This document shows, piece by piece, positions 1,286-51,118 of a stretch of DNA of 64,000 bases (position 1 is its first letter; each line of letters begins with the position of its first letter). The DNA comes from Desulfocapsa sp. GTDB taxonomy: Bacteria > Desulfobacterota > Desulfobulbia > Desulfobulbales > Desulfocapsaceae. The notes under the pieces are model-generated. The model was not told the origin of the DNA. It made no database searches and saw only the letters and a program-made list of their open reading frames with translations. The DNA lies in the NCBI GenBank assembly GCA_022712895.1, contig JAFLJS010000005.1, positions 1 to 64,000 of the forward strand, in the 5' to 3' direction. The position numbers and the translations under genes are program-made.

Positions 1286-1300
1286 TTTGTTTTTAACCTG

Positions 1301-1581: not shown

Positions 1582-1633
1582 ATACAGTTGTTACATGAAT
1601 TGGTTACATATTGGTGCGATCTTCAGCAGGTTC

Positions 1634-2065: not shown

Positions 2066-2294
2066 GACTTAATATCTCATCTTATCGATGTCACAATTGC
2101 GGCTGCAACAATTTCCATATAACGTTTCAGCTCAGGGAGAGGTGGAATTGTGCAGCAGCATCTTTCTCTTTATTTTTGTGGTAGTTACAGCTAGTTAATG
2201 ACACTTGAAAGGAAAAACCTAATTCCCCACTTCCGTCAGTTGGGGTGAGTTCAGGTTAAGGGCTCCACTAGTTACGAAGCTGAACATCTCAAGA

Positions 2295-2555
2295 TTACAA
2301 ATTCCCACCGGCCACCAAAAGCATAACCCCAAAAACCCCCACAAGAAATCCAACAATACACAAAACTGTATAAAGCCCTTTATCTGCTTCATGAGTACAC
2401 GATAGCTCTATATTTTCAAATTCAACCACTCCATCTGAAGAACGATTCTCCAATTCATACTTTTTTAAAACAGCAGTTTTTTTTCGAGCATCGATAATCA
2501 TAAAAATACTAACTGCTACTAATATAGTTCCTAGCAAGAGTGCTGGTATAGACAT
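2295..2555 (-). CDS. small two-helix membrane protein, function unknown
   Basis: An 86-residue protein with a membrane segment at about residues 3-22 (ALLLGTILVAVSIFMIID), a basic linker (ARKKTAVLKKYELENRSSDG), a short polar region containing one cysteine, and a second membrane segment at about 62-83. Positive charge after the first helix predicts that the linker faces the cytoplasm. I do not recognise a family. Upstream and downstream gaps are AT-rich, and no operon partner overlaps it. Confidence 0.5.
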   Translation of the reverse strand: MSIPALLLGTILVAVSIFMIIDARKKTAVLKKYELENRSSDGVVEFENIELSCTHEADKGLYTVLCIVGFLVGVFGVMLLVAGGNL

Positions 2556-2622
2556 ATATATCCTATCCTGGTTTAGTTTATCAACGTTAAAAGGTTGCGA
2601 TGGTTATGGGTCAATAAATGAA

Positions 2623-2838
2623 TTAATTATATCGTTTGTAAACTGTCGAGACAGAATATAAGGTTATTGGTATGGAAAAAGATAGACCAAAAAGCCAAAT
2701 GGGCAATCTATATTTTGATATTTTGGGAGTGTATTTAACAAACGCAATTTCAATAAATGAACCCACAAAACAGAGAATATTTGCGAGAACAAAACTGACA
2801 ATATTTTCTAGCTTAATACCTGTCTCCCTTGCCCACAA
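2623..2838 (-). CDS. putative small membrane protein
   Basis: A 71-residue reading frame with two hydrophobic stretches, at about residues 11-33 (NIVSFVLANILCFVGSFIEIAF) and 45-64 (LPIWLFGLSFSIPITLYSVS), separated by a basic loop (KYTPKISKYR). Same orientation as its neighbours. Support is only the membrane-protein-like composition and position. A plus-strand frame covers much of the same bases but lacks protein-like features. It could also be a truncated relic. Confidence 0.35.
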   Translation of the reverse strand: MWARETGIKLENIVSFVLANILCFVGSFIEIAFVKYTPKISKYRLPIWLFGLSFSIPITLYSVSTVYKRYN

Positions 2839-2899
2839 GAGAATTACCTATCAAAAGAACTATCTTCATTGAGCGACAATTATGCAAAGTGTCAGGCTT

Positions 2900-2960
2900 G
2901 CCCAACAAATGATTCAGATTATGGTTAGTAACTAACACATTCTAATCTTAGATGTTGGGC
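2900..2960 (-). repeat. attC-like imperfect palindrome (candidate 2)
   Basis: The segment opens with GCCCAAC and closes with GTTGGGC, exact fits to integron core boxes RYYYAAC and GTTRRRY. Inner arms resemble each other imperfectly (GATTCAGATTATG against AAGATTAGAATG), and the centre GTTAG-TAA-CTAAC is a perfect small hairpin. It lies 7 bases past the stop of the azoreductase gene, the place an attC site takes in a gene cassette. The 61-base length is within the attC range. No integrase gene is in view. Confidence 0.45.
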
Positions 2961-2967
2961 TTAAATA

Positions 2968-3594
2968 CTACAAATGTTTTGCAAAAACTATTGCCTGGTC
3001 TTTTGATCCGGAAATGGTTTGCTCTTTAGAATCTGAGTCTGTTAACGTTGGCTCCACCAGTATGGTTTTGATGTCTTGAAACCCAATAAAACCTAGCAAT
3101 AACTCCATATATGTTTTTTGAAAGTCCATTGTAGCAGTTTCAACACTACTATATTCCCCACCACGTGCATATATCACTGTGATTGGTTTTCCAGTAACAA
3201 GCCCTTCATACCCTGTTTCCGGATAAAAATTAAAAGTAAGACCAGGCTGAGTAATCACATCAATAAAGTGCTTTAGCTTATATGGTATAGAAAAATTCCA
3301 CATAGGAATGCTAAACAAATAGCTATCAGCATCCTTAAATAGATCGACTATTTTTGAAATTTCATCCCATGCCTTAGCTTCTTCGTTTGTCGGATTTTCT
3401 CCGTGTAGTACCTTGTACTTAGCATTAATGTGATTCCCGTCAAATTCTGGTAATTTAAAATCCCATAAATCCAGAGTCTTTACTTCATTCTTAGGATCTG
3501 CATCCTGGAATGCGCCAATAAATGCTTGTGCAACTTGAATAGAAGCTGACCTATCTTTTCTTGGTGATGATTCTAAATAAAATAATTTACTCAT
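2968..3594 (-). CDS. azoR: FMN-dependent NADH-azoreductase
   Basis: A 208-residue flavodoxin-fold quinone/azo reductase that moves two electrons from NADH to quinones or azo compounds through bound FMN in the cytosol. The N-terminus MSKLFYLESSPRKDRSAS is the phosphate-binding loop; MWNFSIPYKLKHFIDVI around residues 98-114 is the AzoR flavin-contact segment, and YARGGEY around 146-152 is the second FMN loop. Length is normal for AzoR (about 200). The start has AAAGGAG eight bases upstream. A candidate attC site follows the stop, so this may be a mobile-cassette gene. NAD(P)H-quinone reductases of the same fold are the alternative. Confidence 0.88.
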   Translation of the reverse strand: MSKLFYLESSPRKDRSASIQVAQAFIGAFQDADPKNEVKTLDLWDFKLPEFDGNHINAKYKVLHGENPTNEEAKAWDEISKIVDLFKDADSYLFSIPMWNFSIPYKLKHFIDVITQPGLTFNFYPETGYEGLVTGKPITVIYARGGEYSSVETATMDFQKTYMELLLGFIGFQDIKTILVEPTLTDSDSKEQTISGSKDQAIVFAKHL

Positions 3595-3783
3595 TTTGAT
3601 CTCCTTTGGTTTTTTGTTGGATTTTTACAGCCAAACACCAAACTCATTTATTTACAGGTAATGACAAAATTGGGAAAAGTAAATAATGTTTATAATAGTA
3701 ATTACTAAGTGCCGTGATATCTTGGCTTTTTGCTTACAAATAGTAAATCGAACCGAAATAATTTCTTTTACAACCCTTTCACC

Positions 3784-3848
3784 TTCGATAAACTCGTAAA
3801 AACCCCAGAAACAGGATGGGGTTGTAAAAAACTTCATCTGCTTCGTTA
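3784..3848 (-). terminator. terminator hairpin inside a dispersed repeat (copy A)
   Basis: On the minus strand CCCCA...TGGGG followed by TTTTTA forms an intrinsic terminator just past the lipoprotein stop, which lies at the repeat edge. About 50 bases match, almost base for base, the right part of the repeat at 23831-23990 in opposite orientation (shared core CCCCAGAAACAGGATGGGG). The adjoining CTTCATCTGCTTCGTTA also recurs there. Confidence 0.65.
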
Positions 3849-4835
3849 TAAATTCCACCCCCAATAACGGAGAAATCTCGGAAAATCTCCCATGTCCGAC
3901 TCTGCTCTACGCCAAAATTTAAGGCTCGTATAAAAAACAGTTCCTGTTTCATTCTTGTCACCCAGAGCTTTATCTTCCCCGATATACCAGTCAAAAGCCC
4001 ACCAGCTCATAAAAAGCCTCTCAAGTGGTTTGCTGCTGTTTCTCACTAAACCTTTTCTTATGCCTTCTTTCTCAAAAAAAGAGACTTCCCCATCTTCATG
4101 CGCAAGATGCCACAATTTCTCCATGGGAAAAATATCCATGGTCTGTCGATTGTGATATGCTTGAAGTTTTGCAACTGGTTGAAGACTCACATCAATAACC
4201 CGGTGGCTGCCTTTTTCAATCAAGAACACAAGTCGTCTGCCATCGTCCATTGAAGCCCCTTCAAGAATTGCAGGCAAGTTTTTACCAAAGACTATCTGTC
4301 GTTTTTCAGGCCAGTCTCGAGGAAAAGCACTCTTTTTGAGTTTATCTGTTGCTATGAAAGCAAGATAACAACCACAGGTATGGACAGTGGTGATTAAGAC
4401 AATTTCATCCTTATCATTTACGGTAAAAATGACAAGTAACCCTACATTTTTTCCAGCTGTAAGGTGATAATCTCCAGGGAGAAATGGTACTTTCTCAAAA
4501 TGAATACGATAGATGAAATTTTGGTACACAGTGTCCGTTATCTGAAAGTTTTGAATGGCTGCATAGACTGCTCCCCTTGAGCCATCGACATATACCTCCT
4601 CGGTACCGTCGGCGTGGAGTCGGACTCGAGGGGTGCCAATTGGATTGTATGACTTTGAAGGTTCCTGGAGGAAGAATGATGGTGTTAATGTCTCAAGCCT
4701 GTTTTGCCCTGATTCATCTGAGCCTTCCTGGAGTAAATAGGAATTAAAATATCCAGGAGGCGTCGCAGGGGCACAAGCAGTTAGGGATACGGCCAGTATA
4801 CAAAGAAGAAAAAGGGAGAGAAAAGATCTGTACAT
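3846..4835 (-). CDS. predicted lipoprotein, function unknown
   Basis: A 329-residue exported protein. The first 20 residues form a lipoprotein signal (hydrophobic LSLFLLCILAVSLTAC, with lipobox L-T-A-C and Cys20 as lipidation site), so it should sit on the outer or inner membrane facing the periplasm. The remainder is beta-rich (VRLHADGTEEVYVDGS, GLLVIFTVNDKDEIVLITTVHTCGCY) and has no motif I recognise. A CGC motif near residue 153 may bind metal or form a disulfide. It starts one base after the DUF2156 gene with a good ribosome site (AAAGGGAG), so the two form an operon ended by the hairpin at 3784-3848. Confidence 0.7.
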   Translation of the reverse strand: MYRSFLSLFLLCILAVSLTACAPATPPGYFNSYLLQEGSDESGQNRLETLTPSFFLQEPSKSYNPIGTPRVRLHADGTEEVYVDGSRGAVYAAIQNFQITDTVYQNFIYRIHFEKVPFLPGDYHLTAGKNVGLLVIFTVNDKDEIVLITTVHTCGCYLAFIATDKLKKSAFPRDWPEKRQIVFGKNLPAILEGASMDDGRRLVFLIEKGSHRVIDVSLQPVAKLQAYHNRQTMDIFPMEKLWHLAHEDGEVSFFEKEGIRKGLVRNSSKPLERLFMSWWAFDWYIGEDKALGDKNETGTVFYTSLKFWRRAESDMGDFPRFLRYWGWNL

Positions 4836-4836
4836 C

Positions 4837-5703
4837 TTATCTCCCTTTACTTTTAACAGCTCGATACTTCTTCACAAAAGCCACAGGGTTATAACTGAGT
4901 TTTGCTTTTCGCATACCCGAAGCCCCTAAGTCCTGCTCCCTATTAATAGTTATATATTTTTCCGGTAAGATTGAGGCAAAGGCCTGATTGACAAATTGCC
5001 AGAGCCCCTTAAAATCCTGTACCGCTTTTTCAAAATGTATTACGAATGTCTCGCCACATGCAAGCTCCTCACCCAACGAGTACGCTACTGGCTTTCCATA
5101 CACATAATAAAGTCCACCGCAGAGCTGTAACTGTTCTGCTTTCTCAAGAGCTTCCTTTGCAGCTTCATAATCTCCCGGATCTTCTCGTCCGTTCTTCCAT
5201 TGTTCAAGAATATCCAACGCATCTTCAACATGCCTCTCTAAAAGAGGTTCTCCTGTATATGGATATGAACTCAAAAAAGCTTTGATAAGATTACGTTTCT
5301 TATGGAACTTCCCACTTGTCAACTCTGCCATATCCTTTCGAAGATAGAGGTAATCAAAATTATCACGATCTTCGTAGGTGCAATACCCAATATCACGTAG
5401 ATATCTGGCTTGATCTACGGATAGACATTTCAAATTCCCATATAAATCAAAGAGCTTTTCGACGGTGGTGCTTGAAGGGAATCCAAATGGGAGCATAAAG
5501 AAAGAATCCCCTTGATCTTCGCCTGTAATGACTATCAGGTCTGACTCCACAGTGGTAATTTTGTATTTATGTGTTTTACGGAAAAGATACAGGTTAGAAA
5601 AGGTAAATTCAGAAAGACCTTCAGGCAATTTTTGCAGCAACGGATGCAAATAAGGGCGCATTGTCATTTGTATTGCAGATGTTTGCGGGTAATGTGGAAT
5701 CAT
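4837..5703 (-). CDS. DUF2156 (GNAT-like, phosphatidylglycerol lysyltransferase C-domain-like) protein
   Basis: A 288-residue soluble protein with the pattern of DUF2156: an N-terminal GNAT half (SEFTFSNLYLFRKTHKYKI, FFMLPFGFPS), a central signature YLRKDMAELTSGKFHKKRNLI around residues 120-140, and a C-terminal GNAT half ending in INREQDLGASGMRKAKLSYNP, the typical 'N-x-EQDLG' motif. Relatives use aminoacyl-tRNA to modify lipids or act as uncharacterised acyltransferases. It lacks the membrane helices of MprF, so it is a stand-alone domain. First gene of a two-gene unit with the lipoprotein; GGGAGATACAA precedes ATG. Confidence 0.8.
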   Translation of the reverse strand: MIPHYPQTSAIQMTMRPYLHPLLQKLPEGLSEFTFSNLYLFRKTHKYKITTVESDLIVITGEDQGDSFFMLPFGFPSSTTVEKLFDLYGNLKCLSVDQARYLRDIGYCTYEDRDNFDYLYLRKDMAELTSGKFHKKRNLIKAFLSSYPYTGEPLLERHVEDALDILEQWKNGREDPGDYEAAKEALEKAEQLQLCGGLYYVYGKPVAYSLGEELACGETFVIHFEKAVQDFKGLWQFVNQAFASILPEKYITINREQDLGASGMRKAKLSYNPVAFVKKYRAVKSKGR

Positions 5704-5896
5704 TTGTATCTCCCTAGCTGGTCATTGGTGAGTCCAGCCGATTGCCTGTTATACGCCAGATTACGATGGGCCTGGTAACATGGACTCCCGGTTATAACTA
5801 AGAACAGGAACAGGAGCTGTCTTTCACGGACAAATCAAGAAGTTGCAGCCGAAATAAATGGCATGTTTAATGTACTATTTTCCTTTGAGGCAACAT

Positions 5897-7183
5897 CTAT
5901 TTATTGAGGAAATATTCTCTTGTACCTTGTTGCGTTATGGCTCCAGCAATGCGATTAACTCCCTGCAGGTAGGCCGCAGTACGAAGAGAAATCCTTTTTT
6001 CATCGGCAAGATCAAAAATAGCCCTTGCCTCCCTGGTGATACATTTTTCAAGACGTGCATTCACTTTTTCCTCCACCCAGTAATACCCTGCCCTATTCTG
6101 CACCCATTCAAAATAACTTACCGTTACACCACCAGCATTGGCCAGGACATCGGGCAAGACAACAACACCATTTTTCTCCAAGATTGCATCCGCTTCTGAA
6201 GTCACAGGGCCATTTGCTATTTCAAGGACTATCTGTGCCATTATATTCCCTGCATTATCCTTATCTATCTGATTTTCCAGCGCAGCTACCACCAATATGT
6301 CCACATCCAGTTCTAGCAATTCCTGACTGCTTATCTTCTGATAATGTTGCAGGTCACAGACTGACCCGTCACAATAGAGCATCGTACCCAGATCATGATG
6401 TTCCTGCTTATGCTGCATGACTTTTTGAGGCTCTAAACCCTTTTTTGAATAAATAGCTCCCTTGGAGTCAGCAATTCCTACAATATTAAATCCTACCCTG
6501 TGAGCCAATCGAGCAAAATGATATCCAGCATTACCAAAACCCTGGACGGCCACAGTAAGATTTTGCGGCTGAAGTTTTTTCCGGTCAAGCCACTGCTGCA
6601 AGACGTGCAAGGCACCCCTTCCCGTTGCATATTCTCTACCAAGTGAGCCATTCAGGTGCACAGGCTTGCCTGTGATGACTCCGGGTAATTGTTGTCGTTT
6701 GATCTGGGTGTATTCATCTGCCATCCAGCCCATGATGGTGGCATTCGTGTACACATCTGGAGCAAGAATATCTCTTTTCGGCCCGATGATATCGGCAATC
6801 CCTCTAATATAACTTCTTGAAAGCCGCTCAAGTTCAAGCCTGGACAAGTCCTTTGGATTGACACAGATTCCCCCCTTCGCACCACCAAAAGGAAGATTCA
6901 TCACTGCACACTTAATGGTCATCCAAAAACTGAGGGATGTGATTTCGTCCAATGAAACATCGGGATGATAACGAATCCCTCCCTTTGTGGGGCCACGAGT
7001 ATCATTGAATTGCACTCGATAGCCTGTAAAAATTTTCAGGCGGCCATCATCCATTCTTACGGGAAGACTAACACAAAGCGACAACTTAGGATGTTTAAAT
7101 GTTTCTTCCACGTCATCGGTCAACTCAGTATATTTGAAAACGTCAACCAGTCTCTTTTGAGCATCTGCAAAGATAGAATTCAT
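5897..7183 (-). CDS. gdhA: Glu/Leu/Phe/Val dehydrogenase (glutamate dehydrogenase)
   Basis: A 428-residue enzyme of the NAD(P)-dependent amino-acid dehydrogenase family, converting glutamate to 2-oxoglutarate and ammonia. The N-domain has RGPTKGGIRYHP around residues 64-75 and PFGGAKGGICVNPKDLS around 98-114 with the catalytic lysine, followed by a Rossmann domain with VAVQGFGNAGYHFA around 208-221. The C-terminal segment PDVLANAGGVTVSYFEWVQN is also diagnostic. Length is as expected for the hexameric class. It is monocistronic. Leucine or phenylalanine dehydrogenase activity is the alternative, but those are usually shorter. Confidence 0.93.
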   Translation of the reverse strand: MNSIFADAQKRLVDVFKYTELTDDVEETFKHPKLSLCVSLPVRMDDGRLKIFTGYRVQFNDTRGPTKGGIRYHPDVSLDEITSLSFWMTIKCAVMNLPFGGAKGGICVNPKDLSRLELERLSRSYIRGIADIIGPKRDILAPDVYTNATIMGWMADEYTQIKRQQLPGVITGKPVHLNGSLGREYATGRGALHVLQQWLDRKKLQPQNLTVAVQGFGNAGYHFARLAHRVGFNIVGIADSKGAIYSKKGLEPQKVMQHKQEHHDLGTMLYCDGSVCDLQHYQKISSQELLELDVDILVVAALENQIDKDNAGNIMAQIVLEIANGPVTSEADAILEKNGVVVLPDVLANAGGVTVSYFEWVQNRAGYYWVEEKVNARLEKCITREARAIFDLADEKRISLRTAAYLQGVNRIAGAITQQGTREYFLNK

Positions 7184-7364
7184 GGTCTCTTTTACCTCAC
7201 GAAGAAAATACTATTCAAATAACTCTATTCTCTTACCCATCTTTTTTCAGAACAGAAAACACAGCCACTTGACCAGTGTCACATTGTATCCATTCCTTAA
7301 AAGAATAATCATTTGCAATAAAATTTCAAAAAGAATATTTGAAGAGGTGCAGCGAGAGATTAGC

Positions 7365-8834
7365 CTAGGGAGTGATTATGCTGTAAACCTGATTGCGCCC
7401 CTTTTCCTTTGCTATATACAAAGCATCGTCTGCCGTTTTTATAATTTTTTTGTAAATATTGTCTGTCTGATTGATAGAACTCACTCCTATTGAACAAGTC
7501 ACTTTACCAACAGATTCAAAGAGATGTGTTCCAACTTTTCCACACACATATTCTGCAATGGAAACTGCATTTTCAATGGAACTATTTGAGCAAACAATCA
7601 AAAACTCCTCCCCCCCCCACCGAACAACATGATCCGTTTGCCGAACATTTTCTTTTAAAAGGTTTGAAAATTGAATCAAAACTTCGTCACCGTGTTGATG
7701 GCCAAAAGTATCATTAATTTTTTTAAAATGATCGAGGTCGATCATTAATATGGAAAATTGTGTTTTATAGCGCTCGTAAAGTAACTGTTCTCTTTTTAGA
7801 ATAGCATCTATACAACGTCTATTGAGCAGTCCGGTGAGTGAATCTGTATTTGCGTTTTTTTCGACTATTTTATGAGCCGTAATATCCTCACAAATTAAAG
7901 TAATGCTGTTTTCGTTATCATGGTTCTTTTTACATTTCAACCAGATTTCATTGCCACTGCTATGGATGCATTTTATTTCAAAAGATGAGCGTTCTGCATC
8001 AAGATGTTGTCTCAGCGCTTGCAACTGCTTTTCCTTTACTGCATCAGAAAATAGCGTAGCAAAAGAGTATCCAACAAGTTCCTGTTTTGTGTATCCGATT
8101 CTCGCTGTAACTTCTTTTGTGACAAATTGGATAATGCAGTCACCATCGATTTTAAAGATAATAACATTATCATCAACCAGATTATGGTAGCGTTCGACCT
8201 CAGAAATGATATGGATAATTTTTGTATTAATTCTTTCGAGTAAAATGAAGTATTTTTTCTTCTTAGCGGGAGGCTTATTACGAATTAGCACCATACCTGC
8301 TGACATTTTTTCATGTAATGGATTGAGTATAAAACGATATATTGTATAGGTGATCAGTAAGAAGGATACGATCAGCTCCAGTAAAAAAAGTGTTAGTAGT
8401 TTCACCTTTTCACTTTTAGTTTTCTGGTCATATATTACGGAACTTATTTCAACATACAGGCTACCAATATCCTTTCCATGGGATTGAATAATCTGCTCTC
8501 CAGCAGAAGATCTTCTTCCTGTACTTTTGCTGTCAGTTTGATCATAGATAACAGACTTCATGATGAAGTCTGTCACTACTATTTGTCTGATATGTGGCAT
8601 TTGCAGGTAAGGATCACAGAGAGAGCGGATCTGTTCTTTCTTAAAATTCCACAGGGGAGTTTCAAGGGTGGCACTCAATAGCGCGAGAGTCTCTTCTTTT
8701 TCAGCATTTAAGTACGTTGTGACGTTCGCTTTCTGGTTAATCAGCGTGAAAAACCATACACCGGAAACAGGAATAGCCAATGCAAAAAATATACTGATTA
8801 AAAGGGTTATGGATAAATTTTTCTCAGTCTTCAT
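7365..8834 (-). CDS. membrane PAS-GGDEF diguanylate cyclase
   Basis: A 489-residue inner-membrane enzyme expected to make cyclic di-GMP. Membrane helices lie at about residues 8-30 and 145-167 and bracket a periplasmic sensor of about 110 residues. A PAS domain follows (DGDCIIQFVTKEVTARIGYTKQELVGYSF), then GGDEF with the active-site RWGGEEFLIVCS. RQTD, placed before it as in RxxDxxxRxGGEEF, is the product-inhibition I-site, so the enzyme should be active and feedback-controlled. Its start overlaps the stop of the upstream solute-binding protein gene by 11 bases, implying translational coupling and perhaps that the binding protein presents a ligand to the periplasmic domain. Confidence 0.92.
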   Translation of the reverse strand: MKTEKNLSITLLISIFFALAIPVSGVWFFTLINQKANVTTYLNAEKEETLALLSATLETPLWNFKKEQIRSLCDPYLQMPHIRQIVVTDFIMKSVIYDQTDSKSTGRRSSAGEQIIQSHGKDIGSLYVEISSVIYDQKTKSEKVKLLTLFLLELIVSFLLITYTIYRFILNPLHEKMSAGMVLIRNKPPAKKKKYFILLERINTKIIHIISEVERYHNLVDDNVIIFKIDGDCIIQFVTKEVTARIGYTKQELVGYSFATLFSDAVKEKQLQALRQHLDAERSSFEIKCIHSSGNEIWLKCKKNHDNENSITLICEDITAHKIVEKNANTDSLTGLLNRRCIDAILKREQLLYERYKTQFSILMIDLDHFKKINDTFGHQHGDEVLIQFSNLLKENVRQTDHVVRWGGEEFLIVCSNSSIENAVSIAEYVCGKVGTHLFESVGKVTCSIGVSSINQTDNIYKKIIKTADDALYIAKEKGRNQVYSIITP

Positions 8835-9597
8835 CTAAATTAAACGTAATGTTAAAATCCTTCTCAGTATTTGCCATCCCTTCCTGAATAAGACTTTTTA
8901 ATAATCCCTCATCCTTCATCTTATCCAGAACCTTTTGCCACAGTTGAATAACACTTTCAGGAGTATCCTTTGAGAAGGCAATATAGAGTTTACCGGTTTT
9001 TGTCGGAACCATCGCTTTTTTAAAAATCGTGGCGTCTAGGTCGTACCTCTTTGCCCTGACAGGTATGTTATAAGGTGAGGAAACGATCAGATCTACACGT
9101 TTGTAATATAACCCCCTATAATATGCCTCGGTATTTTCAAGCGGTATAATGTGTTTGAATCCTTCCTTGATAAAATTTGAATGAATATTTGAATTTTCTC
9201 GAACACCGACAATAAAATTATTTTTGATATCATCAATACTTACCGGGGATCGTTTTGCATCTTTATGTTGATAAAAGAATCCCTCAATCAACAAAACCGG
9301 TCCAACCCATTTAAAAGAAGGCGTTCGGATAGCAGTTTTTGCCATACTGAACAGTATTTTGTTTGGTTTTGTTTTGATAAGTTCATACGCTGTATTCCAG
9401 GAATAGAGCTGGATTGGCGTTTGATCCCCGATCCGTTTTTGAATTTCCTGCACAACATTAGTGATTGCACCACCCACTTTTCCATCATGGACATAGTTAA
9501 ATGGAGGGTAGTTTTCAGTCATTATTTCTAATTCATCAGATGCCATTGAAGCCGAACAGATCACTAAGGTTGAAAGAAGTATAAAAAGGGACCGCAT
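8824..9597 (-). CDS. orphan periplasmic amino-acid-type solute-binding protein
   Basis: A 257-residue family-3 solute-binding protein. I chose ATG at 9597 because GGAG lies six bases upstream and the protein then begins with a clean signal peptide (MRSLFILLSTLVICSASMA). The mature part opens with LEIMTENYPPFNYVHDGKVGG, the usual ligand-lobe signature, with VGVRENSNIHSNFIKEGF marking the second lobe. An upstream in-frame start (9666) would bury the signal peptide. No ABC permease or ATPase is nearby; the gene overlaps the diguanylate cyclase gene instead. This points to a sensory rather than transport role. Confidence 0.85.
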   Translation of the reverse strand: MRSLFILLSTLVICSASMASDELEIMTENYPPFNYVHDGKVGGAITNVVQEIQKRIGDQTPIQLYSWNTAYELIKTKPNKILFSMAKTAIRTPSFKWVGPVLLIEGFFYQHKDAKRSPVSIDDIKNNFIVGVRENSNIHSNFIKEGFKHIIPLENTEAYYRGLYYKRVDLIVSSPYNIPVRAKRYDLDATIFKKAMVPTKTGKLYIAFSKDTPESVIQLWQKVLDKMKDEGLLKSLIQEGMANTEKDFNITFNLDED

Positions 9598-42901: not shown

Positions 42902-42930
42902 TTGACATCTAACATAGTAACGACTATGCT
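42902..42930 (+). promoter_or_regulatory. promoter with operator-like inverted repeat, torD-psrAB unit
   Basis: TTGACA, a 17-base spacer and TATGCT. A perfect inverted repeat CATAGT-AACG-ACTATG (42913-42928) overlaps the spacer and -10 box, where a repressor could act. The start of transcription would be near 42937. Confidence 0.5.
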
Positions 42931-43028
42931 CCATCTCTTAACAGACAAATACAACAGCGTTTTCCCCGGGCATGATTTTATCTCAGGTAACGCCTAAATA
43001 CACCTCCAAAACAACTATCGCACTTTTC

Positions 43029-43619
43029 ATGTCATCAACTGACCCAGCTCAGGATATTGCCAGAGTATATCGATTCCTTGCCCAATGCATGCAGTACCCT
43101 GATGCAGAATGGACTAACGAGGATTTTTTTAATGTGCTGTATAATTTGCTTGGCACACTTGGCGCCGTTGATGATGGCGTTGAGATCAAAAAAGCAATCG
43201 ATAACGCTGACGATTCTTTGGAAGATCTACAGGTAGAGTATACCAGACTGTTTATAAACGGCATGCCCCACGTCATTGCCCCACCCTTCGGATCTGTTTA
43301 CATGGATCAATCCCTTCAAGGTGCCTTTGCCGGTGATACTCTTGCATTTTACAAAACAAAGGGTTTTGGCATGGAAGAAGATGCCGATTTACCCGATCAT
43401 ATTATCCACGAACTTGAATTCCTTTCCCTCCTGGCAGAAGAGAATGATTTTGCCGGAGAAGAGGAATTTTTGAAAAAACTGTTTCGTCCTTGGTTTGGAA
43501 AATTCCTACCCAGGGTTACAGATGGAGCTCATCACCCATATTATAGGGTGGTTGTACAATTAATAGATTTTTTCACTAAGGAGGAAGACAAAGATGGCTT
43601 TCAACCTAACAAGGCGTAA
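43029..43619 (+). CDS. TorD/DmsD-family molybdoenzyme chaperone
   Basis: About 196 residues, mostly helical: DIARVYRFLAQCMQYPDAEW near the start, VEYTRLFINGMPHVIAPPFGSVYMD around residues 71-95 (the Y-x2-LF...P...S/Y-x-Y family motif), and DLPDHIIHELEFLSLLAEE around 118-136. Such chaperones guard the Tat signal and help insert the cofactor in an apo-molybdoenzyme. Its last 26 bases overlap the start of that enzyme's gene and carry its ribosome site. A start at 42972 is possible; neither has a clear Shine-Dalgarno site. Confidence 0.9.
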   Translation: MSSTDPAQDIARVYRFLAQCMQYPDAEWTNEDFFNVLYNLLGTLGAVDDGVEIKKAIDNADDSLEDLQVEYTRLFINGMPHVIAPPFGSVYMDQSLQGAFAGDTLAFYKTKGFGMEEDADLPDHIIHELEFLSLLAEENDFAGEEEFLKKLFRPWFGKFLPRVTDGAHHPYYRVVVQLIDFFTKEEDKDGFQPNKA

Positions 43620-45834
43620 ATTCCTTCAGACAGCATCATTGGCAGCAGCCAGTGTACCGTTGTCTAAGGTTGTTTCCGCAAACACAGGTGTCTCCAAATC
43701 AGCACTCGACGCAACGGGTACTGCTGGAGATAAAACTGTTGTAGGTGGAATCTGCGAGATGTGTTTCTGGCGTTGTCAGCTGGTCGGTAAAGTACGTGAC
43801 GGCCGCTTGATGAAGCTTGAAGGAAACCCAAAATCCATTGACAACGGCACTGCAATCTGTGCCCGTGGTAATGCAGGAATTAAACTGCTTTACGATGTGG
43901 ATCGCTTAAAGTACCCCATGAAAAATGTGGGCAAACGTGGCGAGCCGAAATGGAAGCGTATTTCCTGGAAAGAGGCACTCGATGAGTGCGGTTCCAAACT
44001 GAAATCCACAGTGGATAAATACGGTGCCCACGGTATCTGTGTTTTCCCTCATGGTGCTTCAGCTAAATACCCCATGCATTATTTTGAACGAACAGTCGGT
44101 ACCCATAACGTTTCCGAAGCATCTTTCTTCCAGTGTCGTGGTATCCGTGACACAGCCTATGTTGCTACCATTGGTAAAGCTCCGGGTGAGAAGATCGACA
44201 TGCCAAATACCAAAGTTCTTTTCTTTATTGGAGATCATCTTGGTGAAAACGTTCATGTATCACATATCAAGCAGTACGTTCAGGGATTACAGAATGGTGC
44301 GAAACTGATCGTTGCTGATCCACGTTTCTCTGCCGCTGCTGCCAAAGCTGATATCTGGGTTCAGATTAAGCCTGGTACTGATACTGCCTATATGCTCGCT
44401 ATCATGAACTATCTTGTGCAGAACAAGAAGTATGATGCTGACTTTATAGAAGACCACACCTCTGGCTTTGAAGAATTCTCAGAAGCCATTAAAGGATGGA
44501 CCCTTGAGAAAGCAGCCAAAGAATGTGACATTCCTGCTAAGCAGATCAAAGAAGTTGCTGAAATGCTGGCTGCCAATGCACCTAATGTTGCCATTCACCC
44601 TGGTCGCCACGTCTCCTGGCATGGAAACGACTTCCAGCGTGAGCGTGCACTTGCCTGTCTTACCGGTATTCTTGGCGCTTACTATGTCAAAGGTGGCTGG
44701 GTTCCAGCTAAAGGACCAAAAGTAAAAGGTGTCTCCTGGGCCAAGCATGATCACGGCAATGAGTTCAACCTGAACTACAATCAGGAAGAAGACGAAAAGA
44801 TATACACCAACAACCCTCCAGGTACCCCCACAGACCTTATTCGTGACTGTGCAATTTCTGGAAAACCGTATCCAATCAAAAGCTGTGTTGTCTGGGGACA
44901 GAATCCCTTGCAGACAATTCCTAATCAGCAGAAGATGAAGGATCTGTTTAATGCCATGGATTTCGTTATGTGTGTTGATGTTATGCCAACAGATGTAACT
45001 GCATGGGCTGATATTCTCCTTCCAGAGAAGAGTTATCTTGAGCGTCACGATTATATCAAGAAAGGTACCCAATGGGATCTCTCCAAAGAGCATCAGCAGT
45101 ACATTTCTGCCCGTATGCCTCTTGTTGACCCAATGTTTGAACGCAAAGATCAGGTATACATTACCAATGAACTTGCCAAACGTATGGGACATTCAGATGC
45201 GATTCCTGTGAACACCATTGAAGAGATGGTTGATAAGTCTCTTGCCTCAGCCAATCTTTCCCTTGAAAAATTGATTGCTGAAGATGGTATCCATATCCAG
45301 CCCGGAAAAGACCCTTACGGAATCCCAGAGGATTTCGAAGTTTTACTTTTCAATGATGATCTTGAGGATGCTGGGCATCCCGGAGCACCAACATATATTC
45401 CTGTTGAAGAAGTACCCGCAGGATACGCAAGACTGCTTTATGGTCGTTCGCCTGTGCACACCTTCAACAGAAGTCAGAACAACGTTTGGCTGCACAACGC
45501 AATGCCTGACAACCCTGTCTGGCTAAACAACGAAGTTGCTGCTAAAGTTGGTCTTGTTGACGGTGATACCGTAGGTTTTGTAAACAGCGAAGGTGTTGAA
45601 TCAGAGACAACCACAACCGTTAAAGTAACCCCTGGTATCAGAAAAGACTGTGTCTATATGTACCACGGATACGGTAGTGCAAATCCACTGATGACCATAG
45701 GCGTTGGTGCCGGAGTTGATGATCAGGCGCTTATTACCAAGCTTGCTATCGACCCTGAGACCGGTTGTCACGGTATGAGAAACAACTTTGTTAAACTGAT
45801 TAAAAATGGAAAGGTTCTGGATCTTTCAGCCTAA
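43594..45834 (+). CDS. Tat-exported molybdopterin oxidoreductase catalytic subunit (PsrA/PhsA-like)
   Basis: 746 residues. The twin-arginine signal TRRKFLQ (6-12) and following hydrophobic run send it folded to the periplasm. A [4Fe-4S] site is formed by C54-x2-C57-x3-C61-x27-C89. SFFQCRGIRD places Cys181 where PsrA/PhsA-type enzymes have the molybdenum ligand. Later GDHLGENVH, HPGRHVSWHGND and the C-terminal dinucleotide-binding domain (YGRSPVHTFNRSQNN) complete the DMSO-reductase fold. Length fits polysulfide, thiosulfate or similar reductases. Arsenate or tetrathionate reductase subunits are alternatives. AAGGAGG lies eight bases upstream of ATG. Confidence 0.9.
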   Translation: MAFNLTRRKFLQTASLAAASVPLSKVVSANTGVSKSALDATGTAGDKTVVGGICEMCFWRCQLVGKVRDGRLMKLEGNPKSIDNGTAICARGNAGIKLLYDVDRLKYPMKNVGKRGEPKWKRISWKEALDECGSKLKSTVDKYGAHGICVFPHGASAKYPMHYFERTVGTHNVSEASFFQCRGIRDTAYVATIGKAPGEKIDMPNTKVLFFIGDHLGENVHVSHIKQYVQGLQNGAKLIVADPRFSAAAAKADIWVQIKPGTDTAYMLAIMNYLVQNKKYDADFIEDHTSGFEEFSEAIKGWTLEKAAKECDIPAKQIKEVAEMLAANAPNVAIHPGRHVSWHGNDFQRERALACLTGILGAYYVKGGWVPAKGPKVKGVSWAKHDHGNEFNLNYNQEEDEKIYTNNPPGTPTDLIRDCAISGKPYPIKSCVVWGQNPLQTIPNQQKMKDLFNAMDFVMCVDVMPTDVTAWADILLPEKSYLERHDYIKKGTQWDLSKEHQQYISARMPLVDPMFERKDQVYITNELAKRMGHSDAIPVNTIEEMVDKSLASANLSLEKLIAEDGIHIQPGKDPYGIPEDFEVLLFNDDLEDAGHPGAPTYIPVEEVPAGYARLLYGRSPVHTFNRSQNNVWLHNAMPDNPVWLNNEVAAKVGLVDGDTVGFVNSEGVESETTTTVKVTPGIRKDCVYMYHGYGSANPLMTIGVGAGVDDQALITKLAIDPETGCHGMRNNFVKLIKNGKVLDLSA

Positions 45835-45858
45835 CAACTTTCTAGGAGGATATATTCA

Positions 45859-46668
45859 ATGCAATATGGAATGATCATAGATCTGGAACGCTGTGTGGGT
45901 TGCCATGCATGCACCATTGCCTGTAGGGCAGAATGGGAAGTTCCGGTTCCTTATCAACGTAACTGGGTTAAACGTCTTGGTCCAACCATGACCGACGACG
46001 GTATGGCCGCTACATACTACCCTGGTCTTTGTAACCACTGCGATGCACCACCATGTGTGGATGAATGCCCCGCAGATCAGGTTGAAAAGACTTTTAAAGA
46101 TGCCAAGTCCGGCAAAACCAAAACCATGACCGTTTCCGCTACCTGGAAAGACCCATTTGATGGTTCTGTTCAGGTTGACAAGGATCGTTGTCTTGGCTGT
46201 GGTGCATGTGCTGACGCCTGTCCTTATGGTGCCCGCTACGTAAACCCTGCGATGGCTGATGATAACAGTGAAGGTAAGGTCGACAAATGTACTTACTGCA
46301 AACCTCGTGTTGAGCAAGGTCTTGAACCAGCATGTGTTCAAACCTGTATCGCAGACGCCCGTATTTTTGGCGACCTCGATGATCCAAACTCAGAAGTTGC
46401 AAAGTATGTGAAGAAAGGTGCCAAAGGCCTGGAAGTAAGTGATGGCAAAATTGGACCAAACTCCAGATACTACGGAACCAAGAAAGACATGGGTCTGCTT
46501 TTCACTGACTACACTCCACAATTAGCTGACATGGGTAGCGTTAAACGCCGTGCCATGATGGCTTCCATGGTGAAACCTGCCATGAGAAAAGCAAAAGATA
46601 TCGGCATGCTTGGTATTGCTGGTGCTCTGCTTGTGAAGGGACTGTCTGAGAATGAGAACAACAAGTAA
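45859..46668 (+). CDS. four-cluster ferredoxin electron-transfer subunit (PsrB-like)
   Basis: 269 residues with sixteen cysteines in four cluster motifs: RCVGCHACTIAC (12-22), LCNHCDAPPCVDEC, RCLGCGACADAC, and KCTYCK with ACVQTC. That is the PsrB/PhsB/DmsB pattern and would wire the catalytic subunit to a quinol or cytochrome partner. It has no Tat signal of its own, so it would be co-exported with the catalytic subunit. The C-tail has a short apolar stretch (GMLGIAGALLVKG), perhaps a membrane contact. AGGAGG precedes ATG. No NrfD-type anchor gene follows; a strong terminator does. Confidence 0.92.
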   Translation: MQYGMIIDLERCVGCHACTIACRAEWEVPVPYQRNWVKRLGPTMTDDGMAATYYPGLCNHCDAPPCVDECPADQVEKTFKDAKSGKTKTMTVSATWKDPFDGSVQVDKDRCLGCGACADACPYGARYVNPAMADDNSEGKVDKCTYCKPRVEQGLEPACVQTCIADARIFGDLDDPNSEVAKYVKKGAKGLEVSDGKIGPNSRYYGTKKDMGLLFTDYTPQLADMGSVKRRAMMASMVKPAMRKAKDIGMLGIAGALLVKGLSENENNK

Positions 46669-46695
46669 GATCTGTTTTTAGACTTATAGTACGGC

Positions 46696-46738
46696 AAAAA
46701 GGGTTACTGATTTTTTTTAATCAGTAACCCTTTTTTTT
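46696..46738 (+). terminator. strong intrinsic terminator after the molybdoenzyme operon
   Basis: AAGGGTTACTGATT and AATCAGTAACCCTT form a perfect 14-bp stem with a T6 loop, followed by eight Ts. It closes the operon 27 bases past the ferredoxin-subunit stop. Confidence 0.95.
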
Positions 46739-46873: not shown

Positions 46874-47134
46874 TCAAGAATAGATAAAAACAAATCGATC
46901 ATCATCAAATGAAATCCGCAGTCGCCCTTCATGATTCCGACCATACACCTCCCAGGCGGCTTCTCCCTCGAACTCACATTTCAAACAACAAGGCGAATGT
47001 TTGCCCTTTTCTCGGTCACACCACGATACCAGTGTAGCAAACTCATTTTCTTTCTCTGCTATCAAACGGCCAGTCTCTTTGGCCTGCTCAAAGTCGAGCT
47101 GATATCCTTCAACACTAAAATTAACTCTCTGCAT
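46874..47134 (-). CDS. AF1514-like (DUF5619-type) small protein
   Basis: 86 residues, compact alpha/beta: VEGYQLDFEQAKETGRLIAE, then FATLVSWCDREKGKHSPCCLKCEFEG (Cys pairs CC and CxxC-like KC), and WEVYGRNHEGRLRISFDDDRFVFIYS. From memory this matches small 'AF1514 family' proteins of archaea and sulfate reducers, of unknown function. The cysteines might bind metal. Its start overlaps the response-regulator stop by 14 bases, so they are co-transcribed. Confidence 0.55.
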   Translation of the reverse strand: MQRVNFSVEGYQLDFEQAKETGRLIAEKENEFATLVSWCDREKGKHSPCCLKCEFEGEAAWEVYGRNHEGRLRISFDDDRFVFIYS

Positions 47135-48551
47135 TATTTCTCTCTGCCTCCTGTTTCAAACGCCAGTTAAGAGCCTGCCTTGTAATACCAAGCATCTGGG
47201 CTGCAATTGCCTGATTGTTTTGAGACCGGTTCAAAGCCTCATGGACCAACAGACGTCCGGATTCTTTTAATGTTGGCAAGGTATCCAAAACACCAAAAAC
47301 AGTCTCTCCTTCAGCAGGGCCAGTAACAATCTCAGTCTTACCGCATCTGTTTTCGATATATTCTTTAAACACATCCATACTCAATGTTCGACTCTGATGT
47401 TTAGAAAGGGCATCAAAAACCATTGATTGCAGTTCTCTGACATTACCAGGATAATTATACGTGCCAAGGAGCATTGCAAGTTCATTGGGATAGGCAGGTT
47501 TCTTTTTACCGAGGCGTGCTGCCGCTTCTTCAAGGAAAAAGTCAATAAGAAGAGGAAGATCATCCAAACGATCACGCAGGGGTGGAATATGGATATGATG
47601 GGTTCGCAGTCTGAAGAAAAGATCCTGCCGGAATTCGCCTGATTCCTGCAATGAATCCAAATCTCTGTGGGTGGCAAAAATCATCCGCACATTGGTACTT
47701 CGCGAGATATCAGAACCCAGCGCATAATACTCACGCTCCTGAATCAATCGCAGAAGTTTTACTTGAGAGGCTGGTGTTAAATCACCTATTTCATCGAGGA
47801 AGATACTCCCGTCTGCTCCTGCTGCTATCAGACCTTTTCGACTCTGGTCAGCTCCTGAGAATGCCCCTTTGGTATGACCAAACAGGGTATCTGCAAGCAT
47901 ATCACCGTCAAGTCCGGCAATATTTACACCGACAAACTCACCACTCCTCCCGGAAAGCGTGTGTACTGCACGGGCAAACAACTCTTTCCCCGACCCGGTT
48001 TCTCCGGTGATAAGCACTGATTCACTGGTGGTGGCAATGGATTCGATATACTGAAATATCGTCCGCATAGTCTTGTTATGGGTAATTATATGAGAAAATG
48101 CTTCGGGATGATTGAGCTGATCCTTTAAAAAATGTTCTTTTAACGAGCTATTTTCCCGGCGTAACATACCAAGATCAATTGCACGTTTTACACCTGTTAC
48201 TAAACGTGATTCTTCAGAAACTTTGGTGAAGAAATCATACGCACCAAGTTTCATACAGGACACAGCCGTTTCCACCTGATCAAGGCCGGTAATAATGATC
48301 ACCGGAATTTCAGGATAGTCTTTTATAACCATCGGTAACAACTCATCCCCTGTGATATGTGGCATGGTAAGATCCAGCACCAGAACGCTATAAGACTGCT
48401 GCTCCAACAGTGCCATAACTTCTCTGGAATCATTACAGGTTTCAACATGATTGATCCCGGCAGAGTGTAGAGTAAGGCTGAATGTATTCAGCCAGGGGTT
48501 TTCATCATCTACCAGTAATACCGGTAAGGAAGGGTAACGTGTTTTAACCAT
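47121..48551 (-). CDS. sigma-54-dependent response regulator
   Basis: A 476-residue NtrC-type regulator. The receiver has DDE15-17, phospho-acceptor Asp60 in LVLDLTMP, Thr88 and Lys110. The AAA+ domain has Walker A GETGSGKE around residues 183-190; the sigma-54 contact loop reads GAFSGA in place of GAFTGA, and Walker B reads GSIFLDEIGD. The C-terminal Fis-type helix-turn-helix is NNQAIAAQMLGITRQALNWRL. It lies 39 bases downstream of a sensor kinase gene, its likely partner. The divergent molybdoenzyme operon is a possible target, though its promoter looks sigma-70-like. Confidence 0.93.
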   Translation of the reverse strand: MVKTRYPSLPVLLVDDENPWLNTFSLTLHSAGINHVETCNDSREVMALLEQQSYSVLVLDLTMPHITGDELLPMVIKDYPEIPVIIITGLDQVETAVSCMKLGAYDFFTKVSEESRLVTGVKRAIDLGMLRRENSSLKEHFLKDQLNHPEAFSHIITHNKTMRTIFQYIESIATTSESVLITGETGSGKELFARAVHTLSGRSGEFVGVNIAGLDGDMLADTLFGHTKGAFSGADQSRKGLIAAGADGSIFLDEIGDLTPASQVKLLRLIQEREYYALGSDISRSTNVRMIFATHRDLDSLQESGEFRQDLFFRLRTHHIHIPPLRDRLDDLPLLIDFFLEEAAARLGKKKPAYPNELAMLLGTYNYPGNVRELQSMVFDALSKHQSRTLSMDVFKEYIENRCGKTEIVTGPAEGETVFGVLDTLPTLKESGRLLVHEALNRSQNNQAIAAQMLGITRQALNWRLKQEAERNNAES

Positions 48552-48590
48552 AATGTATTATTTCCGAATTCTGTATGGGTTATTTTACTT

Positions 48591-50906
48591 TTATTTTTCT
48601 TTATCATGAACGGCTGGAAAAACAATTACAACCTGCGTTCCAACACCAAGCTCAGAGCTGAAGTTCATAAGACCATTATGCTCTTTGACAATTCCTGCAG
48701 AAACAGAAAGCCCAAGTCCTGTCCCGCCCATGGTTCGTTTGGTGGTGAAAAATGGATCTGTCACCTGTTGTAAGTCTTCAGGTGCAATACCAGTTCCCTC
48801 ATCGGAAATACTGACTTCGACTCCATCCACCTGTGCATTATACCTTGTGGAAATAGTCAAGGATTTCTCAGTATTTTCTATTGCTTCCAGACTATTTTGA
48901 ATCAGATTGATCACGACCTGAGATAAACGCTGTTTATTGCCTTTCACCATAAGGTCTTCTTTGGCATAGTGCGTCACAAAACGCCGTGTTCGTTTTTGAA
49001 TCGTATTGGACGTGAGGCGTACTGCTGAGATCACAGCATCATTAATATTCACCTCTTCCATCTGTCCACTTGTTTCATGCCTGGCATAATCCTTTAACTC
49101 TACAACAATCTGTTTTATGCGAACAGCAGACTCCTCCAGCTCCATACATATTCGAGGGAGATGGTTGCGCATTGTTGAATACTCGATTCCGGCAATGGAA
49201 AAATCTCCATTTTCCTCATAAAATTCATCGAGGATCGGTTTTACACTCTCCCAAGATCTGGCAAGAATAGGAACATTGAGCAATGCTATGGAATTGGGAT
49301 TGTTAATCTCATGCGCAACACCTGACACTAACAGTCCAAGTGAAATCATTTTATCAGCCTGTTGTAATTGCTGGCGCTGGGTTTTTGCTTTGTCTTCCAC
49401 ACGTTTTCTTTCGCTGATGTCACGAACAATCCAGATTGCATGCCACTGTCCTTTTATGGTCGTGGAAGAGAGCGATAATTCCACATAGACATCGGTTCCA
49501 TTTTTATTTCGTGCAATCAGCTCAACAGTTCTTGCAAAACTGGAACCGGATTCCACCTGTTCCAGTGGTTTTACCGTAAGATCCTCACCTTCTCGTCGTG
49601 GATCAATAAGCGCATGAATGGGGTGCCCCATTGCCTCTTTATCCGAGAAGCCAAAGAGAGTGGCTGCGGCCTCATTCCAGTAGGTGATATTCCCACCATG
49701 ATTCATCAAAATAATACCGTCAAGTGCAGAACCAGTAAGACTTCGAAACTTATCTTCACTCTCTCGCAAGGAAATCTCAGCGTCATTTCTGGCATCACAT
49801 ATCTCACTGTATCGTTTCGACAAACCGGTCAGATCAACAGCAAGTTTCTTAATTTCAAGGGGACCATTCCAGTCGAATGTGACCTGCCGCTCATTATTAA
49901 TGATATGATGCAGGCCAACGAGTAGATCCTTTTGGAGAAATTCAAGGCGGGCCGCAATCCATTTTGCCGAGATAAATACAAGGATAGACATAATTGAAAA
50001 GATCACCAACACAGAGATGATCATGTTCATCTTCCATTTTTTCATGGCAGATTCATCAACCAATGTACCAACCCACATAACCGCCTGCTGCTCACGGTTA
50101 AAGACCAGAGGCATCCAGGCAATTTTATTTTGATTTTTCCCGGATAAAATAAGAGGATCTGTAGTTTCCATAACCCTCAGTCCAGGAAACTCCTGAAAGG
50201 CATTACAGTCCGTATCAGGCCCACTGAATTCTAGATCAATAGGTTCATCAGCACGACACCCTCGAAGGTAGGAACCATCATCGGTAACCCAGTATGAATC
50301 CATAAAGTCCCGCAAGAACTGTGACATATCAACACGCAACAGCATGACACCCATTGTTATACCGCCTTCCGTTACCACAGGCGTTGACATAATCAGTTCG
50401 TATTCATCATTGCGAGTTCTGTGAAAGGGGTCACTTTTGTGGTCAACAAGTTTTACCAATACATGATCTTCTTTCACAGCCAAAGAGTCTTCAAGAAACA
50501 GGTGCCCCTTATGATTTTCTGAAAACTCAGGTTTCATAAACTGGTTATCACGACGATGGATGGAAAGAAGCTCAACCCCTTCAGCATCAATCAACATAAA
50601 TCCTTTCACCTGATCGTCGTTGCCAAACCAGTGTTTCATTACCTTCGACAGCGTTTTCACCTCAGAAGAATCTTCAAGGGTGGCAAGTGCTGCCGGCAGA
50701 GTTGCCGAACGAATCAAACTTTTTTTCAAACACCTGATTCTGGCATTTAATTGTGTTAAACCAACATGAGAACGGGCCTGTGTTTCAAGCTCAGAAGCAT
50801 ATTCGAGGCGTTCAATGGTTTTAGGAAGACTCAATGCTGCCAAGATAAGAACAGGAAAAAGGCCCAGGGCGATGACCACAAGGAAGATAAAACTACGGAT
50901 TTTCAT
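48591..50906 (-). CDS. membrane PAS sensor histidine kinase
   Basis: About 771 residues. A helix at the N-terminus (FIFLVVIALGLFPVLILAAL) and another around 300 (MIISVLVIFSIMSILVFIS) enclose a periplasmic sensor of about 260 residues, probably of the double-Cache type. A HAMP-like linker and a PAS domain (LDGIILMNHGGNITYWNEAAATLFGF) follow, then the phospho-acceptor helix GLLVSGVAHEINNP and the ATPase boxes NLIQNSLEAIEN, DEGTGI, TGLGLSV. ATG at 50906 is chosen; a TTG at 50960 is in frame. Partner of the regulator directly downstream. Confidence 0.9.
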   Translation of the reverse strand: MKIRSFIFLVVIALGLFPVLILAALSLPKTIERLEYASELETQARSHVGLTQLNARIRCLKKSLIRSATLPAALATLEDSSEVKTLSKVMKHWFGNDDQVKGFMLIDAEGVELLSIHRRDNQFMKPEFSENHKGHLFLEDSLAVKEDHVLVKLVDHKSDPFHRTRNDEYELIMSTPVVTEGGITMGVMLLRVDMSQFLRDFMDSYWVTDDGSYLRGCRADEPIDLEFSGPDTDCNAFQEFPGLRVMETTDPLILSGKNQNKIAWMPLVFNREQQAVMWVGTLVDESAMKKWKMNMIISVLVIFSIMSILVFISAKWIAARLEFLQKDLLVGLHHIINNERQVTFDWNGPLEIKKLAVDLTGLSKRYSEICDARNDAEISLRESEDKFRSLTGSALDGIILMNHGGNITYWNEAAATLFGFSDKEAMGHPIHALIDPRREGEDLTVKPLEQVESGSSFARTVELIARNKNGTDVYVELSLSSTTIKGQWHAIWIVRDISERKRVEDKAKTQRQQLQQADKMISLGLLVSGVAHEINNPNSIALLNVPILARSWESVKPILDEFYEENGDFSIAGIEYSTMRNHLPRICMELEESAVRIKQIVVELKDYARHETSGQMEEVNINDAVISAVRLTSNTIQKRTRRFVTHYAKEDLMVKGNKQRLSQVVINLIQNSLEAIENTEKSLTISTRYNAQVDGVEVSISDEGTGIAPEDLQQVTDPFFTTKRTMGGTGLGLSVSAGIVKEHNGLMNFSSELGVGTQVVIVFPAVHDKEK

Positions 50907-51118
50907 ACAGGAAGACACTCCGAGGATAAACACATGGTAAAGTTTTTTTGCTAATTGCAACCATAGTAGCAGATTCTCTTAACATTTCAAGTCATAGCAC
51001 ATAACCGTAGCTATTTCCAAAAGCACATCCATTCAATCTTTTCTTTTACCTGATTTCAGATTAGTATGGCCTGAATTTCTCAAATACAGTGATACCATCA
51101 ATTACAAGGACAACTATT

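Follow-up and report, generated by a model that had tools for sequence, protein, structure and literature searches.

We analysed a stretch of 64,000 nucleotides of a Desulfocapsa sp. genome (assembly GCA_022712895.1, contig JAFLJS010000005.1, positions 1 to 64,000; hereafter the window), in which the original prediction had placed a self-contained operon for a TorD-like chaperone (D), a PsrA-like catalytic subunit (A) and a PsrB-like ferredoxin subunit (B), without a gene for a membrane anchor. In the open reading frame (ORF) listing the three genes form one operon on the + strand (D, 42972-43619; A, 43594-45834; B, 45859-46668), the Pfam families agree with the proposed assignment, and no NrfD-type anchor gene was found in 90 related loci, so that this description of the operon could be confirmed. 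Matched on its gene set, its export motif and the missing anchor, the locus appears to be a cluster of the published MOLY type. The features of the operon are as follows.

42902-42930, + strand: putative promoter, TTGACA and TATGCT boxes separated by 17 bases, the best sigma-70-like match, both boxes kept in register
43029-43619, + strand: D, MolyC-like chaperone of the TorD/NarJ type, 196 residues; the ORF may open at 42972, the conserved start is at 43029
43594-45834, + strand: A, MolyA-like catalytic subunit, 746 residues, with the twin-arginine translocation (Tat)-type motif TRRKFLQ at residues 6-12 (Pfam, match to PsrA)
43753-43860, + strand: cysteines C54, C57, C61 and C89 of A for the FS0 [4Fe-4S] cluster, each invariant in 86 of 86 sequences
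44134-44136, + strand: C181 of A, aligned with a cysteine of PsrA (2vpw) and invariant in 86 of 86 sequences, which we take from the molybdoenzyme family to be the molybdenum (Mo) ligand
45859-46668, + strand: B, MolyB-like electron-transfer subunit with four [4Fe-4S] clusters, 269 residues (Pfam 4Fe-4S multicluster protein)
46078-46137, + strand: 20-residue insert of B (residues 74-93), missing from PhsB and from seven other aligned B subunits of the anchored type
46531-46656, + strand: C-terminal extension of B (residues 225-266), a basic helix followed by the hydrophobic segment IGMLGIAGALLVKG (alignment, hydrophobicity)
46696-46735, + strand: intrinsic terminator with a 17-pair stem and a T run (folding compared with shuffles)

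Pfam identifies A as a molybdopterin oxidoreductase with Fe4S4 and dinucleotide-binding domains and D as a chaperone of the nitrate-reductase-delta/TorD type. Among solved structures, A is nearest to PsrA of the polysulfide reductase from Thermus (PDB 2vpw), both by sequence (3.4e-137) and by fold (6.2e-53, obtained with a model of mean pLDDT, the predicted local distance difference test score, of 77), and the closest solved match of B is the partner chain of PsrA in the same structure. The top NCBIfam match of A is PhsA (NF012032) with 444 bits, under the cut-off of 694. These matches, together with the absence of NrfD, bear out the proposal that A is a relative of the polysulfide and thiosulfate reductases without the anchor. 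Both arginines of the Tat-type motif, R7 and R8, are invariant in 31 of 31 sequences, and they suggest that A is exported by the Tat pathway. In B, all 16 cluster cysteines are invariant in 29 of 29 sequences, and no N-terminal signal was seen.

In order to examine the missing anchor across relatives, 70 loci were collected from named genomes in searches seeded by short query peptides and hence biased to close relatives; 60 of them were kept (at least 55% identity, L019-L078) and ten distant ones were left out (22-26%, L079-L088). A search of 395 genomes of the phylum added 30 loci, giving a total of 90 D-A-B loci in which a species may recur across the sets. Not one of the 90 loci gave a match to NrfD at any distance (tblastn with 12 NrfD references, E 1e-5, 859,572 bases), and 57 of them extend at least 2000 bases after A and at least 700 before it. 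D is present in 89 of the 90 loci, the exception being L066 with 793 bases before A, and B in 84; in the other six the contig ends inside A or within about 150 bases of it. Both D and B were found by tblastn in L135, L144 and L147. An NrfD gene lies nearby in 15 of the 20 loci taken from the next relatives (31-40% identity, blastp), and the five loci without a match are L161, L162, L166, L167 and L169, the last of which encodes, two genes on, an 8-helix protein of 296 residues unmatched by the NrfD references.

The phylogeny of the catalytic subunit, which had been proposed as a check, was performed with 66 rows and sets the D-A-B clade apart from the anchored enzymes. One switch between the anchored and the D-A-B state is sufficient when six rows with neither label (L161, L162, L169, L166 and two paralogues from the window's own genome) are left out; with all rows in, the three labels take 4 changes, the minimum possible being 2. 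The tree was made by a quick method and has long branches for E. coli PhsA and the own-genome paralogues, and the label "anchored" was given to L167 for a 4-helix protein and to E. coli PhsA for phsC, neither of which is an NrfD match. Judged by gene content and this tree, the lack of an anchor gene is a trait of the whole D-A-B clade. It had also been considered that close homologues might always be soluble two-subunit enzymes with a known substrate; this applies in part only, in that the relatives examined lack an anchor gene.

The MOLY cluster was reportedly proposed by Allioux et al. in 2022. According to the excerpt of PMC12998232 (the published work drawn on in this text is represented by excerpts throughout), it comprises molybdopterin A and B subunits with a TorD/DmsD chaperone, is distinct from relatives with transmembrane anchors, and occurs in 90% of elemental-sulfur disproportionators; together with the YTD cluster it is given there as the best marker candidate for elemental-sulfur disproportionation in Desulfobacterota and Nitrospirota. 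The cluster is named as well in PMC12243485 and PMC9948710. All four features of the type were found in the window, namely a MolyA with a Tat motif, an adjoining MolyB, a syntenic TorD/DmsD chaperone MolyC and no anchor gene. As in the described clusters, A and B stand with the chaperone in one block, the host belongs to the Desulfobacterota and a YTD cluster is in company; no difference from the description in the excerpt of PMC12998232 was found. The hint that the locus might represent an undescribed system is thus outdated, because a cluster with the same features is in print as MOLY. The cluster is real, well conserved and already named, and it is the electron partner that is of wider interest. 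For elemental-sulfur disproportionation the enzymes have yet to be assigned, and MOLY is one of the two best candidate markers (PMC12998232). Added here are 17 diagnostic columns of A, the insert and the hydrophobic tail of B, and two co-occurrences at the genome level.

Several known systems can be compared with the locus. PsrABC of Thermus thermophilus (2vpw) provides the best solved match of both A and B and shares the PsrA-like sequence and fold, but the window has no PsrC (no NrfD/PsrC anchor was found), carries the chaperone in the operon, and encodes a B subunit with extra residues between the cluster motifs and a C-terminal extension. With PhsABC (E. coli plasmid copy, L181) the locus has in common the A/B pair, the FS0 cysteines and the cysteine at the presumed Mo-ligand position; it differs in that A scores under the PhsA cut-off, phsC is missing and A falls in a different clade of the tree. 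The excerpts further describe a "Phs/PsrAB" of Desulfobulbaceae in which the C subunit is missing (PMC13047784) and a Phs of Desulfolithobacter without C, with no functional analysis of PhsAB at that date (PMC9751629). These, including PhsAB of Desulfolithobacter dissulfuricans, resemble the locus in having two subunits, no C and related hosts, a likeness by description only.

The 17 columns that set the D-A-B catalytic subunits apart from the anchored ones (among them K80, N84, G85, K110, E175, H224, C311 and W632) each show a single residue that is shared by 95% or more of the 86 D-A-B sequences of A and by no more than 1 of 15 anchored ones, and they were derived from and counted on the same 86 + 15 sequences. 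Together with the insert of B they form a first set of candidate marks for the D-A-B type. At C311 (window 44524-44526) a cysteine is found in 85 of 86 D-A-B sequences and a threonine in 12 of 15 anchored relatives; it is possible that this residue is a sulfur-binding or structural site.

The contrasts in the insert and the tail of B were derived from the eight aligned anchored-type B subunits themselves. The C-terminal extension is missing from most of these eight, L167 having a short tail, and it was modelled as one long helix at low confidence (mean pLDDT of B, 55.7). With the tail taken as the last 48 residues, the mean best 14-residue hydrophobicity is 1.70 compared with 1.22 in the body, and of the 63 B sequences whose A is more than 54% identical, 60 have a tail more hydrophobic than the body, as opposed to 2 of 19 more distant ones. 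The exceptions among the 63 are L060 (labelled Geobacteraceae), L061 and L149 (another order). L147, one of the two distant loci with a hydrophobic tail, comes from the window's own order and its A from a distant clade, and therefore the tail of B may follow the host and a partner rather than A. The mean best 19-residue score is 1.13, under the value of 1.6 used for transmembrane helices, and the octanol scale is unfavourable; the segment is not long enough to count as a transmembrane helix. Nevertheless, given this conserved hydrophobic tail, a total lack of membrane contact does not follow from the missing anchor gene.

The suggested search of the genome for an orphan nrfD or psrC was also carried out. 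Four NrfD genes (PF03916) were found, all on contigs other than that of the window, and none of them is a plain orphan psrC; PF14589, for PsrC, gave no match in the genome and none in the controls either, and is therefore uninformative. The NrfD of contig C48 sits in a block with a NapA-like protein (729 bits, cut-off 904) and multiheme cytochromes, that of C19 sits with a NapA above cut-off and is itself above the DsrP cut-off, and that of C64 is DsrP. The fourth, on contig C8, belongs to a module without a Mo subunit (L092 7949-11463) that consists of the NrfD, a ferredoxin of the Tat type with four clusters and a pentaheme cytochrome that weakly matches NrfH; two further membrane proteins extend the region to L092 7949-14364. 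As for the Qrc complex, no QrcB above cut-off was found in the genome. Elsewhere, on C19 (L094 8325-13716), a molybdopterin protein of 946 residues is encoded with a Tat ferredoxin of 275 residues and a decaheme NapC-type cytochrome of 474 residues, and no NrfD was seen in the slice around the molybdopterin protein. This set may be a second anchorless enzyme of the same genome, and its decaheme cytochrome suggests that coupling through cytochromes is nothing unusual for the organism.

MOLY was called in 31 of the 395 genomes (A of at least 43% identity, with D and B beside A in all 31). A YedE of the YTD type (E up to 1e-50) is present in 31/31 MOLY genomes and in 32/364 others (Fisher 8e-29), 3 of these 32 belonging to the window's order, Desulfobulbales. 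The link to sulfur disproportionation made in the original prediction agrees with this co-occurrence and with the published MOLY work. The window's own genome carries such a block (L188 5015-7589), made up of a YedE-like transporter, a TusA-like ORF of 85 residues recognised by eye from its CPMPLL motif, a DsrE-like ORF whose match is weak and under the Pfam cut-off, and a further small ORF.

The second co-occurrence concerns the Mo-free module. Its ferredoxin (E up to 1e-55) was found in 30/31 MOLY genomes and in 13/364 others (Fisher 1e-33); a search with the module NrfD, which at its threshold (E up to 1e-40) also picks up NrfD of other types, gave 30/31 and 20/364. In the 16 genomes of Desulfobulbales the ferredoxin is present in all 12 with MOLY and in none of the 4 without, an agreement of 16/16, and in family f31 both of the genomes with MOLY have it, as does 1 of the 9 further genomes appearing in the lists; family f67 has two genomes with the ferredoxin and without MOLY. 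Eighteen slices around module genes were inspected. Fifteen contain the ferredoxin, 13 of these with a cytochrome of at least three CxxCH motifs, and no match to three Mo-protein queries was found within 3.5 kb of the module in the slices with the ferredoxin. Pfam assigned one example of the module to a 4Fe-4S protein, a cytochrome c7 and an NrfD. Two genomes, G249 and G384, have the module and MOLY about 5 kb apart. Excerpts of published work mention a four-gene cluster of Thermosulfurimonas dismutans with two multiheme cytochromes, a TtrB-like protein and an anchor, its role unknown, and "polysulfide reductase" genes of Desulfocapsa sulfexigens whose operons also encode a ferredoxin-type protein and a cytochrome c; these clusters may represent the same module as that of C8.

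Taken together, the data suggest that the locus probably encodes a MOLY-type, chaperone-assisted, Tat-exported periplasmic two-subunit enzyme of the PsrA/PhsA branch without an anchor of its own, which reduces sulfur compounds and is fed by a cytochrome. Until the Mo cofactor has been inserted, the TorD-like chaperone would keep hold of A and of its Tat signal. Since A has a Tat motif and B is without a signal, the two subunits would fold together in the cytoplasm and the signal of A would carry B across. In the periplasm, electrons would pass through the four clusters of B and FS0 of A to the Mo centre, where polysulfide or thiosulfate would be reduced to sulfide; this step would make up the reductive half of the disproportionation of sulfur. 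As B has no NrfD gene alongside it, a periplasmic multiheme cytochrome may supply the electrons, most likely that of the Mo-free NrfD-ferredoxin module, since the module co-occurs with MOLY and is close by in two genomes. Supply by a cytochrome or by an anchor encoded elsewhere, as originally offered, thus remains the best reading and now has a candidate module, although the connection is one that we infer. A stronger form, which we put forward only tentatively and consider rather unlikely, would make MolyAB the catalytic half of a split polysulfide reductase and the module, with its ferredoxin, NrfD and tri- to hexaheme cytochrome c, the quinone half, because the module ferredoxin tracks MOLY and the module is only some 5 kb off in G249 and G384. 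During sulfur disproportionation the module would then pass menaquinol electrons through its cytochrome to MolyAB. Should the module indeed supply the electrons, an unbroken path from menaquinone to sulfur would be in place for the reductive branch.

A number of observations weigh against this interpretation. The co-occurrence is confounded by kinship and shared lifestyle, and the Fisher values ignore kinship and hence overstate the association. One genome, G066, has MOLY and a single NrfD in all but no such module, so that the link between the two is not absolute; conversely, the 13 genomes with the module ferredoxin outside the MOLY set lack the cluster, and the NrfD query was positive in three MOLY-less genomes of the window's order at 28-32% identity. 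On the tree, L161, L162 and L169 branch beside the D-A-B clade without an adjoining D, B or NrfD. As for expression, the excerpt of PMC9751629 reports that the C-less PhsA proteins of Desulfolithobacter were of low abundance during thiosulfate disproportionation (0.12% and 0.06%), PhsA-1, GF1_30490, being slightly higher in that condition and PhsA-2, GF1_10120, higher in sulfate reduction. Desulfurivibrio dismutans, in another excerpt, induced a complete PsrABC, and its lone PsrA without neighbours was little expressed.

Periplasmic formate dehydrogenases and hydrogenases of sulfate reducers feed soluble class III cytochromes c, and the enzyme could accordingly be a thiosulfate-specific PhsAB supplied by this pool in general, with no dedicated partner. 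The top NCBIfam match of A to PhsA, the tetraheme c3-type cytochrome encoded in the genome and the label "PhsAB lacking C" used in the excerpts of published work all point in this direction. However, A, with 444 bits, does not reach the 694 set for PhsA, the PhsA from the E. coli plasmid falls outside the D-A-B clade (though on a long branch), and, with no QrcB above cut-off, the c3 route would need another quinone complex; we consider this explanation possible but doubtful. About the same standing is given to the idea that the C-terminal segment of B holds the complex at the membrane, either directly or through a membrane partner, in which case it would not be truly soluble in the window's order. 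The hydrophobicity of the tail (1.70 against 1.22, with 60 of 63 close sequences in agreement) and the recurrence of such a tail in L147, despite its distant A, are in its favour, but the segment is short, its 19-residue score of 1.13 and the octanol scale speak against insertion, and the model of B has low confidence at the tail.

It is less plausible that the enzyme runs oxidatively, with electrons passing from a reduced sulfur compound outward to a cytochrome. Such transfer would need no quinol oxidation and would fit the missing NrfD, but the closest solved relative is a polysulfide reductase, and Dsr, Apr and Sat already provide the oxidative branch in the published models, as excerpted; we regard this direction as unlikely. 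A respiratory arsenate or tetrathionate reductase is highly improbable. The top family scores of B are TtrB in first and ArrB in third place, with neither cut-off reached, but A obtains only 135 bits against ArrA (NF041714, cut-off 1600) and 83 bits against TtrA (NF011567, cut-off 1750). Moreover, a separate protein of the same genome is much closer to ArrA (1135 bits, also under 1600), and arsenate, which had been listed among the possible substrates, is not supported. The sulfur-reducing, cytochrome-fed MOLY enzyme remains the reading that we prefer.

Regarding the signals around the genes, the promoter call at 42902-42930 is backed by the conservation of its boxes in register and not by the number of sites. 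TTGACA and TATGnT boxes are in register in 11 of 14 aligned rows (the window and 13 relatives, 3 of which do not fit; L102 was left out), whereas the 8 sigma-70-like sites found are at chance level, 7.7 being expected in shuffled sequence; the predicted promoter is thus upheld by the first of these results only. The terminator had been described as very strong, which is correct: its fold has -23.1 kcal/mol (z -8.2), and 0 of 200 shuffles were equally good. A purine-rich ribosome-binding site can be read upstream of A and of B. The start of D is probably the ATG at 43029 (196 residues) and not 42972, because 39 of 59 named relatives align with D from residue 20 of the long ORF onwards and because D has 196 residues in 21 of 30 loci with more than 74% identity in A. 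The last 26 bases of D are shared with the start of A in the window, and 36 of the 59 relatives have an overlap of the same length; in L030 the two genes are read as a single ORF.

In L072, a Desulfocapsa metagenome-assembled genome, two D-A-B clusters are arranged head to head (1070-4737 and 5436-9086), and the second of them is 41% identical to the window in A and 65% in B. Downstream of the operon, the convergent neighbours on the - strand (46874-50960) encode a DUF5619 protein of 86 residues, a sigma-54 response regulator of 476 residues and a PAS histidine kinase of 789 residues. The response regulator (at least 70% identity) is also found 1.2-2.0 kb past A in 11 of the 60 named loci, a set with many truncated members, and it is a possible candidate regulator of the D-A-B operon.

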